This document shows positions 11,117 through 17,992 of a stretch of 38,071 nucleotides of DNA, piece by piece. Position 1 is the stretch's first letter; each line of letters starts with the position of its first letter. The notes beneath the pieces are model-generated. The model was not told where the DNA came from, did not search any database, and saw only the letters and a list, made by a program, of their open reading frames with translations. Both the position numbers and the translations under genes were made by a program. Source of the stretch: an uncultured Lachnospiraceae bacterium (GTDB lineage: Bacteria; Bacillota; Clostridia; Lachnospirales; Lachnospiraceae); the NCBI GenBank assembly GCA_947564645.1, contig CANOCU010000034.1:1-38071 (forward strand). The letters are read 5' to 3'.

Positions 11117-11998
11117 ATGAATCTTGAAATTGCAACCAGGCTGGTAGGGCTGCGTAAGGCAAATAATCTGTCACAGGAGGCGTTGGCGGAGAAGCTGGGG
11201 ATCAGCAGGCAGGCGGTCAGCAAGTGGGAACGGGCGGAGGCGTCGCCGGATACGGATAATCTGATCGCGCTGGCGAGGCTGTATCATGTTTCGCTGGATG
11301 AGCTTCTGAAGATCCATGATGAGGAGGAAAGCGACGCCATGGGTCATGAGGGGCCGGCGCTTTTTGACGGGGCTTACAGTGACGGAGCCGGCGAATGGTC
11401 ATCGGAAGCGACGGAACCGGGAGCAGAAGAGGATATCAGAGGACAGGCAGGCGCCCGCGAGGATCAGTGGGACAGCCGGTATGGCGCCGACGAGGATGAG
11501 GGTGCGATGGAAGACGATGTACATATCGGATTTCATGGCATTCATGTGAAGGATAAGAACGGAGACGAGGTGCACGTAGGCTGGGACGGTATCCATGTGC
11601 ATGATAAGGATAATGAAGTGCATATTGATAAGAACGGTATCTTCGTGAACGGGGAAGAGGCGCGGAAACATCTTTTTGTCTATGAAAGAGAGCGGGCACA
11701 GTTTCCGCTGGGGATCGTGGCGATCGTGATCTATATCGTGATCGGAATCTTTTTTGACCTGTGGCATCCGGGCTGGATCCTCTTCTTCCTGGTGCCGGTC
11801 ATCGGTTCGCTGATCCATGCAGTGCGCAGGCGGAATGCCAATCTGTTTGCCTACCCTGTTTTCGTGCTTTTCCTTTTTCTGTATTCGGGGTTTGTGCATT
11901 TTCGATGGCATCCCACATGGGTACTGTTTCTGACGATCCCGCTCTATTATTCTTTTGTGGAATACTGGAGGGGCAGGAAGACGCCGCCTACCTGTTAA
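11117..11998 (+). CDS. XRE-family HTH regulator with C-terminal membrane domain
   Basis: 293 residues. The start at 11117 has GGAGGAGA six bases upstream; a TTG at 11096 is less likely. Residues 1-65 are a classic XRE/Cro helix-turn-helix (LSQEALAEKLGISRQAVSKW). An acidic, low-complexity linker follows (about 70-140). Then come three successive short beta-type repeats, each with V-H-(I/V) and G-I-(H/F)-V cores, at about residues 139-187 (VHIGFHGIHV, VHVGWDGIHV, VHIDKNGIFV). The C-terminus has an FPLGIVAIVIYIVIGIFFDL helix and two or more further hydrophobic helices rich in Trp and His. A DNA-binding domain tethered to the membrane suggests a sensor of envelope or ligand state. Its last 11 bases overlap the convergent queT. 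Confidence 0.85.
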   Translation: MNLEIATRLVGLRKANNLSQEALAEKLGISRQAVSKWERAEASPDTDNLIALARLYHVSLDELLKIHDEEESDAMGHEGPALFDGAYSDGAGEWSSEATEPGAEEDIRGQAGAREDQWDSRYGADEDEGAMEDDVHIGFHGIHVKDKNGDEVHVGWDGIHVHDKDNEVHIDKNGIFVNGEEARKHLFVYERERAQFPLGIVAIVIYIVIGIFFDLWHPGWILFFLVPVIGSLIHAVRRRNANLFAYPVFVLFLFLYSGFVHFRWHPTWVLFLTIPLYYSFVEYWRGRKTPPTC

Positions 11999-12545
11999 AG
12001 ATCCGTCCCTGGTATCTTAATAGGGAGAGCAGCAGGATCATGCCGAGGATGCCGCAGGAGATGAACTCGCCGGCGCCTACGGTCAGGCAGTAATAGCCGA
12101 AACACTGCAGGGTGGAGAGGCCGTCGATCAGCAGGCCGTAGCCGTAGATCAGAATCAGCGGCACGATCAGCATATTGGCGGCGATGGGGCATACCGGAGC
12201 GCACCATTTCCACTTGCGGAGCGCGTAAGTGCCGAATGCGCCCAACAGCGTCGCCAGACTGCCGAAAAGAATGTCGGGCAGGGCGCATCCTGTCAGGATA
12301 TTGCTGAGCAGGCAGCCGATAAACAGGCCGGGTATTGCGGCGGGGGTGAAATAAGGCAGGACCGTGAGTGCCTCAGAGAAGCGAACCTGCACGGCGTAGT
12401 TGGCAAGTCCGAAGGCGTTCGCGACAAAGGTCAGCACAACGTAGATGGCGGCGATCATGGCCGCCTGAACCATGGTGGTCAGTGAGATGGGCGTAGAGAT
12501 CCGCGCGGGGATCGCCTCGCTGTAAGTCTGTTTCTTCATATGCAT
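11988..12545 (-). CDS. queT: QueT-type queuosine-precursor ECF transporter S component
   Basis: Integral membrane substrate-binding protein of 185 residues. After a short cytoplasmic start come about six hydrophobic helices: MVQAAMIAAIYVVLTFVANA, the conserved VQVRFSEALTVLPYFTPAAI loop, LFIGCLLSNIL, FGSLATLLGAFGTYAL, ANMLIVPLILIYGYGLLI and ISCGILGMILLLSLL. The RFSEAL and PGLFIGCLLSN segments are characteristic of QueT. It would import preQ1 or a related base together with the shared EcfAA'T module, which is not in this window. The start at 12545 has AAGGAG four bases upstream; ATG at 12539 is an alternative. The preQ1-I-like leader supports the assignment. Confidence 0.93.
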   Translation of the reverse strand: MHMKKQTYSEAIPARISTPISLTTMVQAAMIAAIYVVLTFVANAFGLANYAVQVRFSEALTVLPYFTPAAIPGLFIGCLLSNILTGCALPDILFGSLATLLGAFGTYALRKWKWCAPVCPIAANMLIVPLILIYGYGLLIDGLSTLQCFGYYCLTVGAGEFISCGILGMILLLSLLRYQGRIFNR

Positions 12546-12549
12546 TTGT

Positions 12550-12593
12550 CTCCTTTAGTTTTGTTTTACGTCAGGAAGGTCTCGAACTGACGT
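12550..12593 (-). ncRNA. preQ1-I riboswitch candidate in the queT leader
   Basis: On the minus strand a 7-bp stem, ACGTCAG/CTGACGT (12593-12587 with 12574-12568), closes a 12-base loop starting TTCGAG and ending CCTTC. An A-rich tail with the core ACAAAACTAA then runs into the Shine-Dalgarno AAGGAG at 12555-12550. Stem, 12-base loop, TTC.AG loop start and A-rich tail match the compact H-type pseudoknot of preQ1 class I riboswitches. Loop CCTT could pair with AAGG of the ribosome binding site, implying translational repression. The gene is a queuosine-precursor transporter, the expected target. Confidence 0.75.
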
Positions 12594-12637
12594 TTTTATT
12601 TTGGAAAATGCTGATCTATTAGCTTTTCCAGAAATTC

Positions 12638-14243: not shown

Positions 14244-15215
14244 TCACTTTCTGTTCATCAGGCGTTTTCTGTACATGCGGATATCCTGTCCGGTCAGTTT
14301 ACAGATTTCATAATGGCTGGTGATACGGGAAAAAATTCGGTCGGAGTAGCGGTTCCGCAGTTCCTCCAGCGAAAGATTTGTGGAGATGATCGTAGCCTTT
14401 TTCCCCATGTGGCGCTCGTTCAGAAGCGCAAAAAGCTGGGATGTCACGAACTGATTGGTCAGTTCGGTGCCCAGATCGTCGATGATCAGCAGATCACACT
14501 GATACAGGTCCGCGTAGGTTTCACGCAGTTCTTCTCTGTTCTTATAATCGAAGGAATTTCTGGATAGTAAATCAAACAAGCCGGTAGTGCTGAAATAGAT
14601 CACGGAATGACCGGTCTCGATCAGTTCCTTGGCAACACAACCGGAGAGAAAAGATTTTCCCGTTCCCACTGTACCATAAAAGAAGAGATTATGGTAGTCG
14701 GAATTGAAATTTTTGACAAAGTTCCGGCAGGTCCGTACCGCGTTCTGGAAGCGGGACAGATCCTCGCCGTCATAATATTCGTAAGATAAAGAGTCGAAAT
14801 TCTCCGTGCGGAGCATTTCGCGGATGTTGGACTGTTCGTAGAGCAGCGTGATCATGGCCTGCCTGAAGCAGTGGCATTTCTCGCCGCCGATATAGCCCGT
14901 ATCCTGACAGTCCGGGCATTCGTAGACCGGTTCCAGGTAATCCGGGGCAAAGCCGGCGTCCTCCAGAAGCTGCGCCTTGCGGCCCGACAGTTCGGCCAGG
15001 GAGTCCCGCAGATCTTCCATGGCTTCCTCGTCTCCGGCAAGCAGCTTCCTGCCCTGGGCTACGGAGACGGCAGCCACCATATCTTCCAGTTCCCGGTATC
15101 GGGGGATCCGGTCATAGACACAGGCCAGTCTGCGCTCCTGTTCGCGGCGGCTCTTTAATTGTTTCATCTCGTATTGATGAAGGATCGTATCGTATTGCGC
15201 ATTTGTCAGGGACAC
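14244..15215 (-). CDS. dnaC: DnaC/DnaI-type helicase loader ATPase
   Basis: Predicted AAA+ ATPase that loads replicative helicase onto DNA, 323 residues. The N-terminal part is helical and carries a zinc-binding cluster (CPDCQDTGYIGGEKCHC), as in Bacillus DnaI. The AAA+ core has Walker A FFYGTVGTGKSFLSG, Walker B LLIIDDLGTE and sensor-1 ATIISTNLS, followed by an arginine-rich RYSDRIFSRI segment. This is the domain order of DnaI rather than of an IstB transposition helper, which normally lacks the zinc cluster. It follows dnaD by 17 bases, which supports a role in replication initiation. It is called DnaC in many clostridial annotations. Confidence 0.9.
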   Translation of the reverse strand: MSLTNAQYDTILHQYEMKQLKSRREQERRLACVYDRIPRYRELEDMVAAVSVAQGRKLLAGDEEAMEDLRDSLAELSGRKAQLLEDAGFAPDYLEPVYECPDCQDTGYIGGEKCHCFRQAMITLLYEQSNIREMLRTENFDSLSYEYYDGEDLSRFQNAVRTCRNFVKNFNSDYHNLFFYGTVGTGKSFLSGCVAKELIETGHSVIYFSTTGLFDLLSRNSFDYKNREELRETYADLYQCDLLIIDDLGTELTNQFVTSQLFALLNERHMGKKATIISTNLSLEELRNRYSDRIFSRITSHYEICKLTGQDIRMYRKRLMNRK

Positions 15216-15232: not shown

Positions 15233-16360
15233 CTAGTTACTGATCAGTTCCTGCTCCAGGGCATCGAAGTCGTAGTCGTTCTGGGTAAACTGGTTGAATT
15301 TGTTGCCGGCAGCGGGTCTGGACGGCTTCGTCCGGTGGTAGTGCTCGTCCAGGGATCTTATGTCATTGACACTATGTACGCCGGATTTCTGCCAGCTTGC
15401 AAGGATACGGTCGGCGTATTCGAAGCGGTGCTTGTCCGTTGCCAGGACGGTGCGCTCACAGGCGGTAAAAATAATATCGGCGGTGAAGCCGTACTCTTTC
15501 GTCCAACGTGTGATGTAGGCAACTTCCGTCTTCGTGGGAGTGCCGTTCTTCCCCAGCGCCTTCATGATGTCATAGACGGCCTTGTCATATTTGCCGGCCA
15601 GTTTTGCGGCTTGTCTGGGAGTGGTCACGCCCTGCTGCGCCCAACTGATGGCGACTTTCTCGATGTAGCGCAGCTCCTTCTTGCCGCGGTCCACACAGTA
15701 CTGGATCAGATAATCGATCAGATCCTCCGAGAAACCGAGCCTGTCCGAGATAAAAAGGATCGTCTTTACTTCAGTGGCGCTGAGCGTCTTCTTCAGATAC
15801 TGCTCCGCAACGAACAGGAGACGGGCGGTGGCCTCATCGGATTTAAAGGCTTTCAGCTCGTCCAGCGTATAGTTGGGCTTCACATAAATATTGTCGACAG
15901 CGGATTCCGGAGATTCTTCCCGGCTGTCTGCAGGAACCGTCTGCATAAGCCTGTCCTCCGGCGGCCTCTCGCCGCAGGCGGCGTCAAACTTGGAGGTGAT
16001 GGGCACCACGGAAGCAAGAGAAGCAGACTGGGCCGCGGCCGGTACGGAAGCTTCCGGCGCAGGCGCATCGAAATCCCGCAGATGGATACCGATCACGTTC
16101 TTATGCTCATCCAGATCAAGCGTCAGCAGATGATGCTTCTCCCAATATTTCAGGGCGCGCATCACATCCTTCTCCGTATAGTTGAAAAGATCCGCGATAT
16201 CAGAGATACTGGTAGCGCGGCTGGCGCTCATCATACGGAGCAGATACAGATAGATCTTAAGCTGCGCGTCGTTGGCAGCCTGCATATATTCGTCAATAAA
16301 CCGATTGGAAATAATCGTCGAATCGGTATGATTATCCTGATAGATCGTGAAACAACTCAT
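15233..16360 (-). CDS. dnaD: DnaD-domain replication initiation protein
   Basis: 375 residues. The N-terminal winged helix covers about residues 20-110 (YLYLLRMMSASRATSISDIA, DVMRALKYWEKHHLLTLDL). A disordered Pro/Ala linker follows (about 120-175). Two DnaD/DnaB2-type helical domains follow: SATEVKTILFISDRLGFSED to YIEKVAISWAQQGVTT, and a more divergent TKTEVAYITRWTKEYGF to YADRILASWQKSGVHSV. The YxxxI..W motif is present in both. Such proteins remodel DNA and recruit the helicase loader in Bacillota. The start at 16360 has AAGGTGG upstream. It heads the dnaD-dnaC-prs operon and lies 250 bases from murC. Confidence 0.9.
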   Translation of the reverse strand: MSCFTIYQDNHTDSTIISNRFIDEYMQAANDAQLKIYLYLLRMMSASRATSISDIADLFNYTEKDVMRALKYWEKHHLLTLDLDEHKNVIGIHLRDFDAPAPEASVPAAAQSASLASVVPITSKFDAACGERPPEDRLMQTVPADSREESPESAVDNIYVKPNYTLDELKAFKSDEATARLLFVAEQYLKKTLSATEVKTILFISDRLGFSEDLIDYLIQYCVDRGKKELRYIEKVAISWAQQGVTTPRQAAKLAGKYDKAVYDIMKALGKNGTPTKTEVAYITRWTKEYGFTADIIFTACERTVLATDKHRFEYADRILASWQKSGVHSVNDIRSLDEHYHRTKPSRPAAGNKFNQFTQNDYDFDALEQELISN

Positions 16361-16397: not shown

Positions 16398-16414
16398 TGT
16401 GTCAGAATGACACA
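16398..16414. promoter_or_regulatory. 17-bp palindrome TGTGTCA-gaa-TGACACA at the dnaD start site
   Basis: Perfect 7-bp arms (16398-16404 and 16408-16414) with a three-base spacer. It begins 7 bases downstream of the -10 element at 16421-16426, so it should cover the transcription start. The position fits a repressor operator. I do not recognise the binding factor. Confidence 0.6.
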
Positions 16415-16420
16415 TCTCGC

Positions 16421-16429
16421 ATTATAGCA
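16421..16429 (-). promoter_or_regulatory. Extended -10 promoter of the dnaD-dnaC-prs operon
   Basis: Minus-strand TGCTATAAT, a perfect extended -10 (TGnTATAAT), about 60 bases before the dnaD start. The -35 position is AT-rich (TTTTAT at 17 bases), which an extended -10 tolerates. Confidence 0.65.
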
Positions 16430-16451
16430 TAGCGCTCCTCAAAATAAAATA

Positions 16452-16492
16452 GGTAAACAGTAACAAAGAAAAAATAAGAACAAGTGTTTACC
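16452..16492. repeat. Inverted repeat GGTAAACA / TGTTTACC flanking an AT-rich segment
   Basis: Perfect 8-bp arms at 16452-16459 and 16485-16492 separated by 25 A-rich bases. It borders the DnaA-box pair at 16496-16513. It has no T tract and no adjacent gene end that would make it a terminator. Confidence 0.6.
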
Positions 16493-16495
16493 AAA

Positions 16496-16612
16496 TGTGG
16501 ATAATGTGGATGGTGCGGCAGAACATCCCGAAATACGGGGCGTTGTCTGCCCTGCAATATCCACAGAAAACCGGCAGGAACAGCGGCCCTTTTCTGTGGA
16601 TATTGTGAATAA
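16496..16612. promoter_or_regulatory. Cluster of DnaA-box-like 9-mers
   Basis: Site 1, TGTGGATAA (16496-16504), is the exact complement of TTATCCACA. Site 2, TGTGGATGG (16505-16513), abuts it. Site 3, ATATCCACA (16557-16565), and site 4, TGTGGATAT (16595-16603), each match 8 of 9. Site 5, TGTGAATAA (16604-16612), fits TTATNCACA exactly and abuts site 4. Five sites in 117 bases, four arranged as two head-to-tail pairs, lie between murC and dnaD. Known DnaA clusters act as origins, titration sites or regulators; which applies here is not known. Confidence 0.6.
16555..16605. repeat. 16-bp perfect inverted repeat embedding two DnaA-box-like sites
   Basis: Arms 16555-16570 and 16590-16605 are perfectly complementary around a 19-base GC-rich spacer that contains a further CCG/CGG pair. 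Each arm carries one ATATCCACA. It lies 7 bases beyond the murC stop and could form a long hairpin in the murC transcript, but no U tract follows. Confidence 0.75.
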
Positions 16613-17992
16613 TTATTTTTGCAGCAGGTCATCGCCGATTTTTACGACGTCTCCGGCTCCCATAGTTATCAACAGATCCCCTTTTGTGCAATTTTCTAAG
16701 AGGAATGCCTCGATCTGTGAAAAAGTCGGGAAATAGTGGCAACGGTGCCCCAGCTTCTCGATCTCCGCCTGCAGTGTGCGGGAACTGATGCCCAGCGTAT
16801 CTTTCTCCCGGGCGGCATAGATGTCCGCCAGTACGATCTCGTCTGCCAGGGAAAGCGCTTTGGCGAAATCGTTAAGGAAAGTCTTGGTGCGCGTGTAGGT
16901 GTGAGGCTGGAAGACACACCAGGTAGTCTTGTGCGCAAGCTCCCGCGCCGCTAGCAGCGTGGCCGTGATCTCCGTGGGATGATGGGCATAGTCGTCGATG
17001 ACGGTGATGCCGTTTACTTCGCCCTTGTACTCAAAGCGCCTGTCGGTGCCGGCGTAGGCTAGCAACGCCCCGGCGGTGGTCTTAACAGGAATGGACAGCA
17101 GGTCGGCCAGCGCGATGGCGGCCACGGCATTGTATACATTGTGCTTTCCCGGAACCCGCAGAGAGAATACGTCATCTTTTCCGTTCTGCCGCATAAGATG
17201 AAAAGAGGGACAACCCGAGGCATCATAGGTGATGTCCGTTGGATGGTAGTCATGATCGGGTGAGGAACCGTAGGTGATGACCCGGCAGGCAAGATCCCCG
17301 GTGATCTCTTCCAGGTGATCGATATCGCCGTTGATGATCAGGGCGCCGTTATCGGGCAGCAGCTTCGCAAACTGATGGAAAGAGTTGCGGATGTCCTGAA
17401 TATCGTGAAAGAAATCCAGGTGGTCTTCTTCTATATTAAGGATAATGCCGATCTTCGGGAAGAAACTTAAGAAGCTGTTGGTGTATTCACAGGCTTCCGT
17501 GACAAAATAGCCAGAGGAGCCTACACGGATGTTGCCGCCGATGGGCTTATAGATACCGCCGATGGACAGCGTCGGATCGGCCTTGTGTTCTAACAGGATC
17601 TCGGAGATCATGGAAGTGGTGGTGGTCTTGCCGTGGGTGCCGCTGACGGCGATAGGAACTTCATAGTTCTTCATCATCTGGCCCAAAAGCTGCGCCCGGG
17701 TCAGGGTGGGAATGTGCAGGTTTGCGGCGGCGGACAGCTCAGGATTGTCGGGTCTGATCGCGCTGGTATAGACGATCAGGTCGATGTCTGTCGTGATATG
17801 CTCTTCTTTCTGGCCGTAATAGACGGTCGCGCCCCGCTCTGTAAGCGTCTGCGTGAGGGGGGAGGGGGTCCTGTCGGAACCGGAGATGCGAAAGCCCTCG
17901 GACAGCAGGATCTCGGCCAGTCCGCTCATGCTGATGCCGCCGATTCCGATGAAATATATATGAATAGGATTGCTGAAGTTGATCTGATACAT
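16613..17992 (-). CDS. murC: UDP-N-acetylmuramate--L-alanine ligase
   Basis: Cytoplasmic peptidoglycan precursor enzyme that adds L-Ala to UDP-MurNAc. The start is placed at 17992 (MYQINFSNPIHIYFIGIGGI) because AAGGAG lies six bases upstream and the family begins there; the open frame to 18238 is not supported. The result is 459 residues, the usual size. The N-terminal UDP-binding loop is FIGIGGISMSGLAE, the ATP-binding loop is AVSGTHGKTTTTSM near residue 110, and the HNVYNAVAAIALA and DDYAHHPTEI motifs of the central and C-terminal domains are intact. The gene is isolated from other mur genes. Confidence 0.97.
   Translation of the reverse strand: MYQINFSNPIHIYFIGIGGISMSGLAEILLSEGFRISGSDRTPSPLTQTLTERGATVYYGQKEEHITTDIDLIVYTSAIRPDNPELSAAANLHIPTLTRAQLLGQMMKNYEVPIAVSGTHGKTTTTSMISEILLEHKADPTLSIGGIYKPIGGNIRVGSSGYFVTEACEYTNSFLSFFPKIGIILNIEEDHLDFFHDIQDIRNSFHQFAKLLPDNGALIINGDIDHLEEITGDLACRVITYGSSPDHDYHPTDITYDASGCPSFHLMRQNGKDDVFSLRVPGKHNVYNAVAAIALADLLSIPVKTTAGALLAYAGTDRRFEYKGEVNGITVIDDYAHHPTEITATLLAARELAHKTTWCVFQPHTYTRTKTFLNDFAKALSLADEIVLADIYAAREKDTLGISSRTLQAEIEKLGHRCHYFPTFSQIEAFLLENCTKGDLLITMGAGDVVKIGDDLLQK

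Follow-up and report, generated by a model that had tools for sequence, protein, structure and literature searches.

The analysed window is a stretch of 38,071 nucleotides and represents contig 34 of a 140-contig, 4.15-Mb assembly of an uncultured Lachnospiraceae bacterium. Its minus strand carries, in this order, murC, a gap of 252 bp, dnaD, and a gene for a helicase loader of the DnaC/DnaI kind. The murC gene (UDP-N-acetylmuramate-alanine ligase; 16613..17992; Pfam Mur_ligase, Mur_ligase_M and Mur_ligase_C) was given a putative start codon, and the open reading frame stays open farther upstream. The dnaD gene (15233..16360; Pfam DnaB_2, the DnaD/DnaB_2 domain) encodes a helicase-loading replication initiation protein, and the loader gene (14244..15215; Pfam IstB_IS21 and Bac_DnaA, an IstB/DnaA-AAA protein) is probably the next gene of the dnaD operon. 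The first-pass annotation had named two initiation genes downstream of the gap, and the Pfam matches confirmed both.

Five DnaA-box-like 9-mers were located within 117 bases of the gap. Array 1 (16595..16612, minus strand) immediately adjoins the murC stop codon TAA and is an abutting head-to-tail pair of TTATTCACA (16604-16612) and ATATCCACA (16595-16603). Behind it follow an inverted box, ATATCCACA on the plus strand (16557-16565), and array 2 (16496..16513, minus strand), in which CCATCCACA (16505-16513, two mismatches) abuts TTATCCACA (16496-16504). All five boxes, the abutting head-to-tail order that joins four of them into two pairs, and the 16-bp perfect inverted repeat (16555-16570 and 16590-16605) had been described in the first-pass annotation and were recovered. 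The AT-rich segment framed by GGTAAACA and TGTTTACC fared less well. Both words (16452-16459 and 16485-16492) and the segment (76% A+T) are present, but the segment corresponds to the upstream portion of the dnaD promoter region, and of 102 regions, made up of 99 genus and named loci and three same-order loci (see below), only 3 have the frame. The frame was therefore rejected as an unwinding element, and frame and segment were given little weight as evidence. The pair at 16595-16612 was the sole zero-mismatch match to TTATNCACANTATNCACA on both strands of the 4.15-Mb assembly. Exact boxes numbered 31 in forward and 55 in reverse orientation in the same genome, compared to 2 and 3 for the reversed pattern; this count was not used as evidence because the reversed word has a different make-up.

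The window was also searched for known RNA families. None was present at the gathering threshold, and two weak sub-threshold matches were obtained between positions 12000 and 21000. A weak match to the preQ1 riboswitch (12549-12596, minus strand; 23.2 bits, E 0.32, gathering score 39) directly precedes a QueT transporter gene (11988-12545) and is possibly a divergent riboswitch of the preQ1 type.

The probable promoter of dnaD is an extended -10 element, TGC-TATAAT, at 16421..16429 of the minus strand (-10 hexamer 16421-16426, TG 16428-16429). The -10 hexamer is separated from the 3' end of array 2 by 69 bp. A -35-like hexamer, TTTTAT (16444..16449, minus strand), was recognised by position-wise conservation in 120 family loci, the conserved TT of the -35 being located at -23/-22 from the start of the -10 at a spacing of 17 bp. 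A search that picks the best hexamer and favours a preceding TG found the extended -10 in all 81 distinct regions of the genus and named sets and in 125 of 130 distinct regions of the family. High-scoring extended -10 elements were present in 120 of 131 family regions, compared to 14.3 expected from shuffled sequences. A short palindrome, TGTGTCA-TTC-TGACACA (16398-16414, minus strand), is located where the dnaD transcript probably begins; it may be a 5' stem-loop or an operator. It was kept in three of the four near relatives checked, as TGTGTCcTTCTGACACA in L106 and L107 and as TATGTCtTTCTGACATA, with paired changes, in L125; L010 was without it.

Conservation of the region was analysed at three levels. 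The genus set comprised 25 genomes including the window's own, with a DnaD match in 23 (L009-L031) and both genes at 21 loci. At all 21 loci, a pair lies no more than 12 nt from the murC stop codon with an inverted box behind it; a second tandem pair was present at 19, and the same number carried pair, inverted box and second tandem together. The named set consisted of the best 80 of 316 Lachnospiraceae matches, including the formally named strain Eisenbergiella tayi DSM 26961, which has the element at locus L178, and overlaps the genus set in part, some contigs being in both. Among the 78 named loci that hold both genes, the pair was found at 77, the inverted box at 78, the second tandem at 72, and all three at 71.

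The family survey covered 150 genomes from 149 genera (about one per genus), in 148 of which DnaD was found. Besides the window's own genome, 139 loci were readable on the upstream side; G095 (contig start), seven genomes without a listed dnaD match and two without a match were omitted. The murC gene was located upstream on the same strand at 137 of the 139 loci, the gap ranging from -1 to 631 bp, and was not found at L244 and L308. Four gaps were too short for boxes, and the remaining 133 were analysed. When up to one mismatch was allowed, these gaps had a mean of 5.0 boxes (0.52 for shuffled sequences, 1.29 for equal lengths of murC coding sequence); exact boxes averaged 2.5 (0.025 shuffled) and abutting same-strand pairs 1.5 (0 shuffled). 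At least three boxes were present in 117 gaps and at least one abutting pair in 106. Three gaps scored as box-free; one of them (L260) resulted from a misplaced murC stop, and the true box-free cases are L290 and L295. The clustering of boxes is well beyond chance, which confirms the original observation, and the sites seen in the window are kept upstream of dnaD in its relatives.

The composition of the region varies within the family. Of the 133 gaps, 84 have a pair no farther than 12 nt from the murC stop, 39 an inverted box following it, 92 a second tandem, and 26 pair, inverted box and second tandem together. With the pair near the stop in 84 gaps and all three elements in only 26, the complete arrangement characterises only the closer relatives of the window. 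Nineteen of the 150 genomes (control 0) matched a strict search pattern that combines the pair with the inverted box. The pattern lies directly before the dnaD match in 16 of the 19, own genome included; in G145 and G056 the pattern and the best dnaD match are on different contigs, and for G157 the position of dnaD is unlisted. In many genera of the family, with L253, L301 and L306 as examples, array 1 is continued by a third box after a step of 12 bp (offsets 3, 12 and 24), so that arrays combine 9-bp and 12-bp steps. Six loci (L290, L295, L275, L297, L322 and L326) have no arrays and a murC-dnaD gap of at most 64 bp; dnaD may therefore be transcribed from murC in these genera, which offer natural contrasts for comparing dnaD regulation.

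Outside the family, the same-order loci L034, L036 and L038 contained 7, 4 and 3 boxes, respectively; the gap was undefinable for L035 and L037, and L032 and L033 had no murC. Ten further same-order stretches included five with murC upstream (one at a distance of 1290 bp), all of which had boxes and four an abutting pair. The excess over murC coding sequence was small for five same-order loci (4.8 versus 3.4 boxes). Stretches from 20 families of the same class, but of other orders, were also covered; in none of the 20 was murC detected upstream of dnaD, and none had an abutting pair within 2.3 kb upstream of dnaD. The 400 bp before the dnaD reading frame contained 0-2 boxes in these families, counted from the opening of the reading frame, with the dnaD start uncertain in at least 3 of the 20 stretches. 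A 300-bp spot with at least three boxes occurred somewhere in the 2.3 kb in 3 of the 20 controls and in 129 of 137 family stretches of 1.5 kb.

Two hairpins were predicted between murC and the promoter. The arms of hairpin 1 (16555..16605, minus strand; arms 16590-16605 and 16555-16570) hold the second box of array 1 and the inverted box 16557-16565 (plus strand). Hairpin 2 (16520..16554, minus strand) is a predicted fold of the window's region. Equivalent hairpins in many relatives have a T-rich tail and resemble a terminator of murC; the six bases past the inverted box contain on average 4.4-4.7 T. The T-run is absent from hairpin 1 of the window, and a terminator scan called no terminator in the window. 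A terminator-like hairpin with T-run was present on the murC strand in 82 of 120 family regions, compared to 4.2 expected from shuffles that preserve single-letter composition, and a terminator-like hairpin lies between arrays 1 and 2 at 51 of 64 family loci with two arrays. Covariation was analysed in two sets of 49 and 38 distinct sequences, in which the second box and the inverted box are 38 or 39 bp apart. The stem reaches past the boxes through covarying pairs. Cells with changes on both sides numbered 46 in the first set (10.8 shuffled) and 69 in the second (30.3 shuffled). Pairs with both-side changes were not in excess in the second set (9 versus 8.4 shuffled), and sliding the structure by -1 gave the same number of both-side cells (69) with far fewer paired cells (46.6% versus 84.8%). 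Within the genus, array 1 also supplies an arm of the covarying hairpin that follows murC.

At family loci, distances to the dnaD -10 were measured from where the last tandem array ends. Distances cluster near 39, 49, 59, 69, 79, 90 and 100 bp, corresponding to an R of 0.69 at a period of 10.4 bp (n=98; distances of 20-110 bp), and 89 of the 98 loci fall into the in-phase half. This R is to be read with kinship among genera only partly removed and a -10 search biased to TG. It was not reached in 5000 jittered sets or in 5000 random draws of equally many distinct values, and permuting partners between genera (5000 sets) abolished the phasing. The main test omits 15 of the 113 tandem-bearing loci, at which the last tandem is more than 110 bp from the -10; R falls to 0.63 with all 113. 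Two control distances at family loci were unphased, R being 0.18 (p 0.11) between the -10 and the ATG and 0.16 (p 0.35) between the last tandem and the ATG; the distance from murC stop to -10 was weakly phased (R 0.30; p 0.11 for distinct values). Arrays 1 and 2 are also in phase with each other (R 0.65 at 11.2 bp, n=64).

Gain of boxes could mimic steps of about 10 bp because boxes are 9 bp long. Growth of the arrays by 9 bp was excluded as a trivial cause by separate tests of 2-box arrays (R 0.71 at 11.0 bp, n=54), 3-box arrays (R 0.87 at 10.3 bp, n=42) and distances taken from the start of the array (R 0.76 at 10.7 bp, n=98). Relatedness was checked using a FastTree phylogeny of MurC fragments from 97 loci, which gave 48 disjoint nearest pairs. 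The two distances of a pair differed by 0-3 bp in 24 pairs, by 8-11 bp in 15 and by 19-22 bp in four; the remaining differences were 13, 25, 30, 34 and 50 bp, one each. The turn class switches at least 33 times on the MurC tree. A conserved box cluster at one promoter and a geometry tied to that promoter, as at a DnaA-regulated promoter, were thus both found.

The first-pass annotation had also proposed a secondary initiation site, and the location of dnaA and the GC skew argue against it. No dnaA was detected in the window's own assembly. In ten genomes in which dnaA and dnaD were both located, the two shared a contig in eight, at distances of 101-667 kb in seven and of 3.33 Mb along the contig in G142 (about 257 kb if circular), and were on separate contigs in two; the arrays before dnaD are thus on another contig than dnaA or at least about 101 kb away from it. 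In contig G023:C1 of one relative, GC skew was positive in 31 of 32 10-kb windows over 320 kb (160 kb on each side of dnaD), the only non-positive window (-0.014) being about 100 kb from dnaD. No sign change was thus found at dnaD in this relative, whereas the skew flips sign at dnaA in G023 and G013. With six boxes, the murC-dnaD gap exceeds every other 180-bp spot in the same 320 kb, the next best elsewhere having three; the alternative that other places are equally dense in boxes did not hold there. At 11 dnaA loci, the dnaA match is flanked by clustered boxes on either side, with the limits of the gene verified for L074 only. The ABC primosome uses a DnaA-box hairpin, and the inverted boxes of the murC-dnaD gap, which adjoins helicase-loader genes, can form a similar one. 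Given the skew and the separate box clusters at dnaA, use of the region as a secondary chromosomal origin or replication restart site is extremely improbable, and the region is probably not an origin.

The clusters at the dnaA loci of the same genus consist, like the arrays, of several boxes of the same consensus; they differ in being located beside dnaA, at the skew flip in two genomes, and in their spacing. Same-strand spacings at dnaA loci were 8, 10, 11 and 12 bp, mostly 11 and 12 bp, and no abutting 9-bp pair was found in 21 dnaA loci of relatives (1.9-3.2 kb each). In comparison, 120 murC-dnaD regions contained 184 abutting 9-bp same-strand pairs. DnaA is the natural candidate for the binding protein because of the box consensus. 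Another protein with a similar site, which would bind contiguous TTATCCACA rows and regulate dnaD, has to be considered because of the lack of abutting 9-bp pairs at these dnaA loci, and the tandem boxes have C as their fifth letter in 439 of 460 readings, a total in which the middle box of each triple is entered twice. However, the first box varies in the genus and named loci in the manner of a DnaA box (TTATTCACA, TTATCCACA, TTATACACA, TTATGCACA, TTTTCCACA, TTGTCCACA), and the arrays also show 12-bp spacings, 41 in 120 loci. Binding by a protein other than DnaA is accordingly regarded as quite improbable.

A DnaA sink was the second role suggested in the first-pass annotation. Clusters of DnaA boxes outside oriC are described in B. 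subtilis, where they limit free DnaA (Okumura et al. 2012, as cited in PMC13220808), and deletion of six such clusters is reported to cause early initiation (PMC13220808). The boxes before dnaD are likewise dense, of the consensus type, and separated from dnaA by the distances given above. The described role of the B. subtilis clusters is that of limiting free DnaA, and dnaD is absent from the 20 leading DnaA regions found in vitro for B. subtilis, as given in PMC4447404. In E. coli, datA, DARS1 and DARS2 are also DnaA-binding loci away from oriC, as is predicted here; they are described as working on the nucleotide state of DnaA, datA with IHF (PMC13220808). A titration cluster that lowers free DnaA and stands before dnaD by happenstance is quite unlikely. 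A pure sink would explain neither the position of the boxes before dnaD, which most genera retain, nor their phasing with the promoter, which titration does not need. Titration could, however, be an additional effect that coexists with regulation.

It is considered fairly probable, from position and phasing, that the arrays form the control region of the dnaD-loader operon, on which DnaA would act from one face of the helix, probably as an activator. The interpretation in the first-pass annotation is partly supported: its proposal that DnaA controls its downstream partners finds support in the conservation and in the phasing with the dnaD promoter. DnaA would bind the head-to-tail rows of contiguous 9-bp boxes in arrays 1 and 2, and the bound protein would act on RNA polymerase at the extended -10 promoter from a fixed helix face. 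The last array ends 39-101 bp 5' of the -10 without overlap with the promoter (98 loci). From this upstream position and the phasing, a factor bound to the arrays probably touches a factor bound to the promoter. DnaA would most likely be an activator at class-I-like distances, by comparison with activators of the CRP type. The hairpin after murC, terminator-like in many relatives, would shield array 2 and the promoter from read-through.

The opposite sign of control was weighed on the same geometry. DnaA on the arrays could repress dnaD, or mainly block read-through from murC; the mutual phasing of arrays 1 and 2, as for a loop, and the terminator-like hairpin between the arrays would suit such a role. 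However, the last array is clear of the promoter, and an upstream, non-overlapping arrangement is more usual for activation. Repression has precedent, as DnaA feedback-controls dnaA-dnaN and represses this operon in E. coli (PMC13220808). Repression of dnaD or a read-through block as the main function is rated as rather unlikely, and activation by DnaA is retained as the preferred reading.

The closest described counterpart of such activation is the sda gene of B. subtilis, for which boxes upstream of the promoter are reported to matter for full DnaA activation (PMC4447404). Boxes upstream of a promoter are common to both. The region described here differs from the account of sda in that the target is dnaD, the boxes form contiguous 9-bp rows, the phasing with the promoter extends over many genera, and array 1 is part of a terminator-like hairpin in part of the family. 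No paper on control of dnaD by DnaA boxes was found, judging by titles and the opening lines of abstracts, in the open-access literature searched (most subscription papers were outside this scope), and the only paper found there that pairs the DnaA box with Lachnospiraceae concerns a Psychrobacter plasmid. DnaD of B. subtilis inhibits cooperative binding of DnaA (PMC13220808), and the DnaA-dnaD circuit may therefore be a feedback loop.

A wider reading is possible and is offered tentatively: DnaA would directly set the supply of its helicase-loading partner via phased arrays, with feedback between DnaA and DnaD, and in part of the family the murC terminator would be built from the boxes. If this is true, initiator occupancy and murC transcription meet in one element in that part of the family. 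A phased, family-wide element predicts that steps of 10 bp are tolerated and steps of 5 bp are not. The cross-genus phasing test provides a means of recognising working regulatory sites from sequence alone. To our knowledge, little is known about the control of replication initiation in Lachnospiraceae, a family common in the gut. The element joins initiator, helicase loader and a cell-wall gene of these bacteria at one junction.
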